Below, in pieces: positions 4,842 through 56,233 of a stretch of DNA of 64,000 bases. The notes beneath the pieces are model-generated. The model did not search any database and was not told the origin of the DNA. It was given only the letters and a program-made list of their open reading frames with translations. Position numbers and translations under genes: made by a program. The stretch spans positions 1-64,000 of the forward strand of contig JAFLUM010000003.1 in assembly GCA_022508805.1 (NCBI GenBank). The letters run 5' to 3'. How positions within the stretch are numbered: position 1 is the stretch's first letter; each line of letters begins with the position of its first letter. The stretch is from Oscillospiraceae bacterium (lineage in GTDB: Bacteria > Bacillota > Clostridia > Oscillospirales > Acutalibacteraceae).

Positions 4842-4918
4842 CGGGGTGTGGCGAAGTTTGGTATCGCGCTTGGTTCGGGACCAAGAGGCCTCGGGTTCAA
4901 GTCCCGACACTCCGACCA
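4842..4918 (+). tRNA. tRNA-Pro (anticodon CGG)
   Basis: The acceptor stem CGGGGTG pairs with CACTCCG (one G-T wobble). The anticodon arm is CTTGG-TTCGGGA-CCAAG, giving anticodon CGG. The T-arm contains GGGTTCAAGTCCC and the CCA end is encoded. The last 22 nt of the gene are repeated exactly at 5112-5133. Confidence 0.95.
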
Positions 4919-4956
4919 AAACAAAAACGGTTACCGATAGGCGACCGTTTTTGTTT
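4919..4956 (+). terminator. tRNA-Pro terminator, possibly bidirectional
   Basis: AAACAAAAACGGT (4919-4931) pairs perfectly with ACCGTTTTTGTTT (4944-4956), 13 bp. Its loop contains CCGATAGG, which is also found in the terminator loop at 6275. It forms the first part of the 215-bp unit described at 4919-5133. Confidence 0.8.
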
Positions 4957-5133
4957 CGTAAACAGTCGAGGAACTTGAACCCGAGAGGGTTTCGGCGTTA
5001 AGGAAATGTGCCGGCGACACATTTTTAGCCGAAAGCACGAGGCGGGTACCGAATGCGAAGCATTCGGTCGCCGAAGTGGAAAGCATGCAAGGCGTAAGCC
5101 GCAGCAGGCGGTCAAGTCCCGACACTCCGACCA
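4919..5133 (+). repeat. 215-bp tRNA-3'-associated unit A (predicted structured RNA)
   Basis: This stretch between tRNA-Pro and the next gene has no credible ORF. After the terminator it contains an inverted copy of the tRNA T-arm (ACTTGAACCCGAG, 4973-4985). It then has hairpin AACCC-GAGA-GGGTT (4978-4991), AAATGTG/CACATTT (5004-5024), GGCG-x3-ACCGAATGC-GAA-GCATTCGGT-CGCC (5041-5072) and TGC-AA-GGC-GTAA-GCC-GCA (5086-5103). It ends in a 22-nt exact copy of the tRNA 3' end including CCA (5112-5133). Unit B behind tRNA-Leu(CAG) has the same order, the same length and a 23-nt identical block (5085-5107 here). Whether it is a mobile insertion, a tRNA-derived RNA or a processing element is open. 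Confidence 0.7.
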
Positions 5134-55564: not shown

Positions 55565-55593
55565 TTGACATTCGTATAATTAAATGGTATCAT
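55565..55593 (+). promoter_or_regulatory. tRNA-Leu(CAG) promoter
   Basis: TTGACA (55565-55570), spacer 17, TATCAT (55588-55593). The tRNA leader contains a hairpin TTTGGTTTC/GAAACCAAA (55629-55637, 55653-55661) just upstream of the mature 5' end. Confidence 0.65.
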
Positions 55594-55670: not shown

Positions 55671-55757
55671 GCGGATATGGCGGAATTGGCAGACGCGTTA
55701 GATTCAGGTTCTAATGGTCGCAAGGCTGTGCAGGTTCAAGTCCTGTTATCCGCACCA
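55671..55757 (+). tRNA. tRNA-Leu (anticodon CAG)
   Basis: 87 nt with a long variable arm. The acceptor stem GCGGATA pairs with TATCCGC. The anticodon arm TTAGA-TTCAGGT-TCTAA gives CAG. CCA is encoded. 19 nt of its 3' end recur at 55951-55969. Confidence 0.95.
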
Positions 55758-55795
55758 AAAACTCATCAGTCGCTTTAGCGACCGATGAGTTTTTG
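55758..55795 (+). terminator. tRNA-Leu(CAG) terminator
   Basis: AAAACTCATC-A-GTCGC (55758-55773), loop TTTA, GCGAC-C-GATGAGTTTT (55778-55793). It has the same 38-nt length as the tRNA-Pro terminator but a different sequence. Confidence 0.85.
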
Positions 55796-55972
55796 CATTA
55801 AGTTATTGCGGGACTTGAACCTGCGAAGGTTTCGGCGTTTAGAAAATGTGCCGTCGGCACATTTTTAGATGAATGCGGAGGCGGATACCGAACGCAAAGC
55901 GTTGGGTCGCCAAAGCGAACAGTATGCAAGGCGTAAGCCGCAGCAGACAGTCAAGTCCTGTTATCCGCATCG
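55758..55972 (+). repeat. 215-bp tRNA-3'-associated unit B (predicted structured RNA)
   Basis: Same layout as unit A. After the terminator comes GGACTTGAACCTGC (55811-55824), an inverted copy of this tRNA's own T-arm. Then AACCT-GCGA-AGGTT (55818-55831), AAATGTGCC-GTC-GGCACATTT (55844-55864), GGCG-x3-ACCGAACGC-AAA-GCGTTGGGT-CGCC (55880-55911) and TGC-AA-GGC-GTAA-GCC-GCA (55925-55942). The 3' end is a 19-nt copy of the tRNA-Leu end (55951-55969), with TCG instead of CCA. A short stem and seven T (to 56003) follow. Confidence 0.7.
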
Positions 55973-56003
55973 GAATAAACCTCGCTTTTGCGATGCTTTT
56001 TTT
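55967..56003 (+). terminator. Possible terminator of unit B
   Basis: GCATCG (55967-55972) and CGATGC (55991-55996), followed by seven T. The inner part can also pair as CGC-TTTT-GCG. If used, it would end a plus-strand transcript of unit B. Confidence 0.5.
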
Positions 56004-56097: not shown

Positions 56098-56126
56098 TTG
56101 ACAAAATTGAGTAACAGGGGTATAAT
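56098..56126 (+). promoter_or_regulatory. tRNA-Leu(TAA) promoter
   Basis: TTGACA (56098-56103), spacer 17, TATAAT (56121-56126): full consensus. Confidence 0.85.
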
Positions 56127-56146: not shown

Positions 56147-56233
56147 GCCGCTGTGGCGAAATCGGCAGACGCAAGGGACTTAAAATCCCTCGGTGGCAAC
56201 ACCGTACCGGTTCAAGTCCGGTCAGCGGCACCA
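56147..56233 (+). tRNA. tRNA-Leu (anticodon TAA)
   Basis: 87 nt. Acceptor GCCGCTG with CAGCGGC. The anticodon arm AGGGA-CTTAAAA-TCCCT gives TAA. Long variable arm, CCA encoded. Unlike the other two tRNAs it has no 215-bp unit behind it. Confidence 0.95.

Follow-up and report, generated by a model that had tools for sequence, protein, structure and literature searches.

Host-matched tRNA-tail repeats around conserved structured centres in Clostridia: a possible generalised form of the tyrT-type repeat

The window – the whole 64,000-nucleotide stretch of Oscillospiraceae DNA that was analysed – contains two members of a family of small non-coding units that lie directly behind tRNA genes. The ends of each unit match the tRNA behind which it lies, while the centre is common to the family. 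This common centre, the class 1 payload, is a strongly covarying conserved structure, and at least two unrelated payloads occupy the same frame. The preferred reading, held tentatively and a little short of probable, is that the units are structured RNAs transcribed by read-through, set in a frame that was built at the tRNA T-loop through duplication or a switch of template. The units would then be a generalised tyrT-type repeat.

The units of the window

Class 1 matches were scored with R1, a covariance model built from the common centre alone. The features of the unit behind tRNA-Leu(CAG), followed by those of the unit behind tRNA-Pro(CGG), are:

55565..55593, plus strand: sigma-70-like promoter of tRNA-Leu(CAG) (TTGACA, 17 nt, TATCAT), a consensus match only
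55671..55757, plus strand: tRNA-Leu(CAG), the host gene; position 55736, in its T-loop, is where the repeat begins
55756..55795, plus strand: terminator-like hairpin 1, directly 3' of the tRNA, a 19-bp inverted repeat
55811..55824, plus strand: antisense T-arm copy (antiT), an inverted repeat, exact against 55730–55743
55817..55950, plus strand: common centre (payload) of class 1; model R1, 122.8 bits
55818..55831, plus strand: helix P2 (AACCT, GCGA tetraloop, AGGTT), from alignment and pair counts
55843..55865, plus strand: hairpin P3b, a near-perfect palindrome with A-run and T-run sides, from pair counts and fold
55880..55911, plus strand: helix P4, from pair counts; the inner part is also in the minimum-energy fold
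55922..55948, plus strand: helix P5 (GTATGC...GCAGAC), from pair counts
55951..55969, plus strand: direct copy of tRNA-Leu 55736–55754, T-loop to discriminator, without CCA, from repeat search and fold
55980..56003, plus strand: short stem and T7 (55997–56003), terminator-like 2, by sequence
4842..4918, plus strand: tRNA-Pro(CGG), host of the second unit of the window
4977..5111, plus strand: common centre of the tRNA-Pro unit; R1, 137.3 bits; fold z = −3.2
5112..5130, plus strand: direct copy of the tRNA-Pro tail, then CCA

A repeat search found TCAAGTCCTGTTATCCGCA at 55736–55754 and again at 55951–55969, a 19-nt repeat with 100% identity whose spacing, 215 bp, is exactly that of the original prediction. 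Between the two copies, GGACTTGAACCTGC at 55811–55824 (14 nt) is the exact reverse complement of 55730–55743, an inverted T-arm. Roughly estimated, the number of exact 19-mers expected by chance in 600 nt is ca. 2e-9, and that of inverted T-arm 14-mers ca. 4e-5. The arrangement is not due to chance, because a match to class 1 or to the second class described below was present in 38 of the genus's 39 genomes, though some of the class 2 matches are short and weak.

The two terminators of the tRNA-Leu unit are indeed unlike in sequence, as first described, and neither has an entry in the terminator scan; hairpin 1 has a 2-nt loop and one mismatch. The 23-nt segment that had been put forward as common to the two units of the window was read from the sequence and is identical (55924–55946 and 5085–5107).

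The fold of 55806–55969 has an energy of −69.7 kcal/mol, compared to a shuffle mean of −49.0 (z = −5.0). In this minimum-energy fold, antiT pairs with the first letters of the direct copy 55951–55969 to form helix P1; P3b and part of P4 are also seen, and the letters of P2 are paired otherwise. All of P1–P5 are visible in the minimum-energy fold of the tRNA-Pro unit, 4842–5133, in which the parts have the same order as in the tRNA-Leu unit. A consensus scan found one promoter-like site upstream of tRNA-Leu(CAG) and none inside its unit. Judged from the sequence, plus-strand transcription from the tRNA promoter would fit this unit.

R1 finds three class 1 units in the genome to which the window belongs, the third of them near the end of contig C4. 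The tRNA-Leu(TAA) gene of the window, 56147–56233, has no unit, no tail copy and no inverted part; it has its own consensus promoter match (TTGACA, 17 nt, TATAAT, 56098–56126) and a terminator-like site. The only Rfam matches in the window at gathering score are the three tRNAs, with no riboswitch, T-box or other family.

Structure and distribution of class 1

In the alignment of units, the order of parts is: tRNA, terminator 1, antiT, P2, P3 with the inner hairpin P3b, P4 (often shortened), P5, the tRNA-tail copy, and terminator 2. The antiT is the reverse complement of approximately positions 51–66 of the tRNA. Its 3' part, a GNRA loop and matching sense T-arm letters make up the P2 hairpin, and its 5' part pairs with the first letters of the tail copy in P1, which closes the whole fold. 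The tail copy spans the T-loop to the discriminator, with CCA present or absent. The distance from the end of the tRNA to the centre is 30–73 nt, with 59 the most frequent. A constant unit length, as originally predicted, was not found: the tail spacing is mostly 173–224 bp, with a few of 261–306 that include extra sequence or a neighbouring tRNA, and the typical unit length is about 150–225 bp, the shortest units measuring 137–148 bp.

Across 38 centres, 92.9% of 1352 cells were paired, compared to only 35–43% when structures were slid along the alignment, and changes on both sides of a pair numbered 175 versus 47.6 in shuffles. In fixed register, P2 has a four-letter loop in 52 of 100 distinct starts; 45 of these 52 loops are GNRA, and all four bases occur at the N. 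Loops of this kind, in which the second base is free to vary, argue for an RNA.

Within the genus, R1 matched 35 of 39 genomes (E <= 0.01) and, in a sample of 247 genomes from the order, 52 genomes representing 34 of 136 genera (E <= 1e-4). Named records matched by pattern were mostly metagenome bins of Clostridia/Oscillospiraceae, including Candidatus Fimenecus excrementavium. Pattern matches at seven loci in Proteobacteria and an Omnitrophota bin were taken as chance, with no adjoining tRNA and a weak or absent R1 match. No match of the unit was found in phages and plasmids by blastn, or in viral contigs, in which one exact pattern was searched. A literature search covering titles and the beginnings of abstracts, with subscription papers thinly represented, found no description of this family.

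The loci fetched comprised 182 R1 matches, reduced to 164 units after the removal of repeats, with 10 further rows excluded beforehand. Ninety-six of these units begin at most 120 nt from a complete tRNA or tmRNA gene, 24 begin within 700 nt (many of these being later members of arrays), and two are far away. For the other 42, there is no complete tRNA or tmRNA in the fetched stretch. Twenty of the 42, from 17 loci, were inspected: in some, the upstream tRNA is represented by its 3' part alone, others lie at masked or missing sequence, and others are decayed. Five loci in which only the 3' part of a tRNA lies upstream of the unit (L135, L154, L161, L150 and L177) look as though tRNA and unit had been separated by the integration of an element.

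An upstream gene was available for 120 units, and 111 of these, in which the gene ends in CCA and enough sequence lies behind it, were used in the comparisons that follow. The upstream genes of these 111 units represent 24 tRNA species and tmRNA. Outside of the genus, 17 of 18 loci fetched after the model was built adjoin a tRNA with antiT and/or copy; one of the 18, L289, is identical in sequence to L096, which was used in the model. The frame behind tmRNA has the T-arm and tail of tmRNA itself (L112, 5451–5580, minus strand, and L313).

Host-matched ends, a second payload and rearrangements

Units were located by the centre model only, and the same 210 bases were then searched for the tails of the unit's own tRNA and of others. 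The 3' copy had its own gene as the unique best match in 97 of the 111 units. A search limited to 45 bases behind the model match, which misses copies where the match ends early, gave 89 of 111. The last 11 letters before CCA were an exact match to the own gene in 89 of 111 units, versus 2 of 6414 comparisons with other kinds of tRNA. For the antisense T-arm, the best 12-mer was exact for the own tRNA in 74 of 111 units, versus 453 of 6414 for others. The original prediction that the tRNA-derived flanks are specific to the host while the centre is common is upheld by these counts. It did not hold that every unit has a tail copy: the full 19 letters are shared with the own tail in 49 of 111 units, fewer than 16 in 34 units (in some of which the copy is shifted by one base), and only 9–13 in 11 units.

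Differences between copy and tRNA were compiled in 84 units. At these positions antiT agrees with the tRNA in 39 cases, with the copy in 2 and with neither in 3. Of these 44 letters, 23 fall on position 58, which is conserved, and one-base shifts account for some of the remaining 21. At positions 59 and up, the counts are 16, 2 and 3. With the same two reservations, this weakens the proposal that pairing with the copy is all that maintains antiT.

The Pro(GGG) loci have a copy that begins not in the T-loop but at the CAAG of the anticodon arm (CAAGAGGCC). This was seen at three loci and, by likeness, at L087, which has no tRNA within the stretch. The antiT has changed to fit the shifted copy in L091, L115 and L087, and fits poorly in L107.

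Behind the tRNA-Pro(CGG) of some species, a different centre (class 2) is found within the same frame. Its conserved centre is GTCCATCTTTTGCG...GCAAAAGGGACATA (L306–L315). A DNA search with one unit, with the tRNA-derived ends included in the query, gave class 2 matches in 12 of the 39 genomes of the genus. Three of these (G001, G002 and G029) have a class 2 match without class 1 – G001 is counted by sequence match only, its one locus having been read without a complete tRNA in the stretch – and G036 has a single class 2 match, to the tail part only. Nine of the 12 class 2 loci that were read are behind Pro, Leu(TAA), Gln, Gly, Glu, Ser or tmRNA genes, with antiT and/or copy, and three have no such tRNA frame in the stretch. 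A third kind of centre was seen once (L256).

Seventeen arrays, in which the repeat begins in the T-loop, provide 21 pairs of neighbouring units. Fourteen of these pairs are alike in both terminator and centre, and are tandem duplicates; three are unlike in both (in L079 behind Leu(GAG), in L082 behind Glu(TTC), and in the tRNA-bearing block of E. coli); and four are mixed. The unit had been described as a module that acquires its flanks from the tRNA it sits behind. The match to the host tRNA stands, but acquisition is only one of several mechanisms.

The two terminators of a locus are alike in 38 of 97 loci and unlike in the other 59. In comparisons between loci, terminator 2 of one resembles terminator 1 of another in 13 of 534 cases, and the terminators 1 of two loci resemble each other in 28 of 534. 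Terminator 1 would have arrived with the unit in one case (L079/L125) and would be the tRNA's own in another (Leu(CAG) in G035 versus G023 and G024). Whole-block differences between species were seen at Leu(GAG) (L079/L125) and Pro(TGG) (L061/L192).

Two near-syntenic genomes, G037 and G026, differ in a unit behind Arg(TCT), which is present in G037 and absent in G026. It is flanked by direct repeats of the tRNA tail and terminator, and the difference can be a loss instead of a gain. Of the Gln(CTG) unit, G026 has everything through P4, with an unrecognisable copy (L144), and in G037 the unit is cut at the apex of P3b. In G034, the Val, Pro and tRNA-Trp-fragment loci have common sequence behind the unit and an antiT that fits the local tRNA, which looks like conversion between loci. 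When the nearest centre was identified for 70 units, omitting the unit's own array, it was behind the same tRNA in another genome for 25, behind another tRNA in the same genome for 12, and neither for 33, which indicates both inheritance and spread within genomes. Taken together, the arrays, the terminators, the G037/G026 comparison, the G034 loci and the Pro(GGG) copies suggest that short words resembling the T-loop serve as sites of recombination or template switching, by steps that we infer.

Origin and possible function

In E. coli, the repeats at tyrT have been recognised for a long time and, to our knowledge, have so far been an isolated oddity. In strain MG1655, inverted T-arm pieces are found at +56 to +78 behind each tRNA-Tyr of tyrT/tyrV, and the exact last 19 letters of tRNA-Tyr are found again at +156 or +159, with repeats of 178 bp. 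The longest inverted match was reached by 4 and 2 of 500 shuffles, in which only the single-base content was kept. The record annotates the ncRNA RttR. The tyrT/rttR locus is like the present family in its order of parts: tRNA, 56–59 nt, inverted T-arm parts, a hairpin with sense T-arm letters, payload, and 19-nt copy. The unit of the window has the same anatomy, with an exact tail copy of ca. 19 nt and an inverted T-arm ca. 55–60 nt behind the tRNA. The antisense T-arm of E. coli is imperfect, whereas that of the Leu(CAG) unit is exact, and the frame was seen in E. coli at tRNA-Tyr only, in contrast to the range of tRNA species and tmRNA in Clostridia.

The Rfam family RtT (RF00391) had no match in any of the 39 genomes of the genus or, at gathering score, in the window. 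In 10 loci it had none up to E = 1; tRNA was the sole convincing Rfam match there, and the other, weak ones look like chance. In a control set of 14 genomes, RF00391 matched E. coli only. R1 did not match the E. coli locus (L117). The family has been filed, by its anatomy, as a new variant of the tyrT-type repeat and not as a member of Rfam RtT. The occurrence of one frame across an order and behind many tRNAs makes the origin and function of the tyrT repeat comparable and testable.

In the preferred reading, the unit would be promoterless and transcribed by read-through from the tRNA promoter. The transcript would fold with antiT paired to the 3' copy (P1) beside the GNRA-capped P2, and the payload RNA would probably be a small RNA of the rtT type. 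The frame would arise from a switch of template at the T-loop, during replication or repair; the T-loop consensus GGTTCRA is common to nearly all tRNAs. A snap-back behind the palindromic terminator would copy the T-arm in antisense, the payload of another locus would be brought in by a jump via this consensus, and a return jump would copy the tail and terminator of the host tRNA again. Tandem duplication, and deletion between direct repeats, would keep the tails identical to the tRNA.

This account is favoured by the own-gene match of the copies (97 of 111), the covariation, the GNRA loops, the fold z-scores, the absence of an internal promoter in the scan, the 17 of 18 loci outside the genus, the tandem arrays, the loci with two similar terminators, the Arg(TCT) difference between G037 and G026, the agreement of antiT with the tRNA, the shifted Pro(GGG) copies, class 2, and the E. 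coli frame. Against it, no case was found of a unit newly forming at a tRNA. The terminators are unlike in 59 of 97 loci, and the 13 of 534 cross-locus resemblances are equally explained by insertion of whole blocks. Neighbouring units differ in both payload and terminator in L079 and L082, and four pairs are mixed; helices P3b, P5 and P2 show no excess of G-U over A-C; and 11 of 111 units with no more than 13 of 19 letters persist.

A broader proposal – that the T-loop is a general point of acquisition in bacteria, at which template switching copies the ends of a unit from any host tRNA or tmRNA, so that unrelated payloads (class 1, class 2 and E. coli rtT) could move without damage – is more speculative and must be considered doubtful. 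If the ends are written from the host tRNA, non-coding units would have a route into essential genes without breaking them. Reverse transcription primed by tRNA was considered as well, since retroviral primer sites switch similarly. It was rejected as the main model because the duplicated terminators behind the tail show duplication at the level of DNA.

Unlikely, in comparison, is a regulatory device in which antiT blocks folding of the T-arm in read-through transcripts, the 3' copy and P2 compete, and the payload senses a signal and controls the tRNA in question. The agreement of antiT with the tRNA over the copy (39 to 2, with the two reservations stated for that count), the perfect antiT 12-mer to the own tRNA in 74 of 111 units, and the conserved fold with its GNRA loop are what such a device would lead one to expect. 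However, terminator 1 lies between the tRNA and antiT, and therefore the majority of transcripts should stop short of antiT. This model gives the acceptor part of the copy nothing to pair with, yet an exact match of the last 11 letters is found in 89 of 111 units. Some tRNAs do without a unit, such as Leu(TAA) in the window, in a genome with three class 1 units, and unrelated payloads in one frame argue against a single sensor. If the RNA does act on its tRNA, it would represent a new kind of tRNA-specific control.

Less likely again is a site-specific mobile cassette, in which a recombinase acting in trans would insert blocks of tail, terminator, antiT and payload at the T-loop and restore the tRNA – in effect, an integrative element reduced to its attachment site. 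As at the tRNA attachment sites of integrative elements, the 3' end of the tRNA is directly repeated from the T-loop onwards, but a unit of ca. 150–225 bp is too short for an integrase, includes an inverted T-arm, and has one payload behind many tRNAs. Whole-block differences between species, the unlike neighbours in L079 and L082, the start of the copies in the T-loop (Pro(GGG) excepted) and the palindrome P3b, nearly without G-U, are all consistent with insertion. The tail of one tRNA would, however, give a broken hybrid at another, yet one payload class is found behind 24 tRNA species; 14 of 21 neighbours are plain duplicates; and phages and plasmids had no match of the unit.

Two kinds of partner enzyme were rejected. 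Units are like integron attC cassettes in forming arrays of small units, in being closed by a pair of inverted repeats, and in having palindromes that change on both arms, but the T-loop GTTCRA does not fit, by eye, the attC core motif GTTRRRY. The integron integrase (TIGR02249) was above cut-off in none of the 39 genomes. Like REP/RAYT and MITE-like repeats, the units are dispersed, small, palindromic and non-coding, but they lie behind tRNA or tmRNA genes with host-specific ends, and a Y1 transposase is unnecessary. This transposase (PF01797) was above cut-off in 20 of 39 genomes and had no match in the genome of the window (G000) or in G038, which has 13 units. Matches to the integron-integrase model below cut-off, as from other tyrosine recombinases, were found in 36 of 39 genomes, so an integrase acting in trans could still be at hand.

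Counts of G-U versus A-C pairs, which ignore shared ancestry, differ between the helices. The ratio is 29 to 1 in the tRNA acceptor stem, 43 to 1 in the T stem, and 99 to 27 and 124 to 50 in the terminators. It is 6 to 1 in P3a, 13 to 8 in P1, 4 to 8 in P2 and 20 to 20 in P5. P4 has 30 to 4 by hairpin search, and 13 to 13 and 2 to 4 on fixed alignment columns. P3b has 4 G-U versus 9 A-C among 1031 pairs, and 22 to 21 over a wider stretch. Because the counts in P3b, P5 and P2 are unlike those in acceptor stems, several helices evolve unlike a one-strand RNA helix, and P3b and P5 therefore change like two-strand palindromes. The stem of P3b is preceded by an A-run and followed by a T-run, and P3b could act as a terminator in both directions, in which case G-U would be excluded on either strand; alternatively, its arms may be matched by template switching.

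Least probable is that the units are a neutral by-product with a functionless RNA, made by tandem duplication of tRNA tails and with palindromes perfected by template switching, which would agree with the counts in P3b, P5 and P2, the G037 unit truncated at the apex of a hairpin and the units with a decayed copy, but not with a payload conserved across a bacterial order (52 of 247 genomes), the free second base of the GNRA loops, or the excess of G-U in P3a and, by hairpin search though not on fixed columns, in P4, and P3b may instead owe its lack of G-U to two-way termination.

In two cases at tRNA-Leu(CAG) the frame is incomplete or divided. In G003, the tRNA and its unit are 13 kb apart (L041 at C6:16434 and L224 at C6:29455), apparently split within the loop of the terminator. 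In G035 (L210), a lone antisense T-arm is found behind the terminator, with no payload or copy, and is either a remnant or a starting point.
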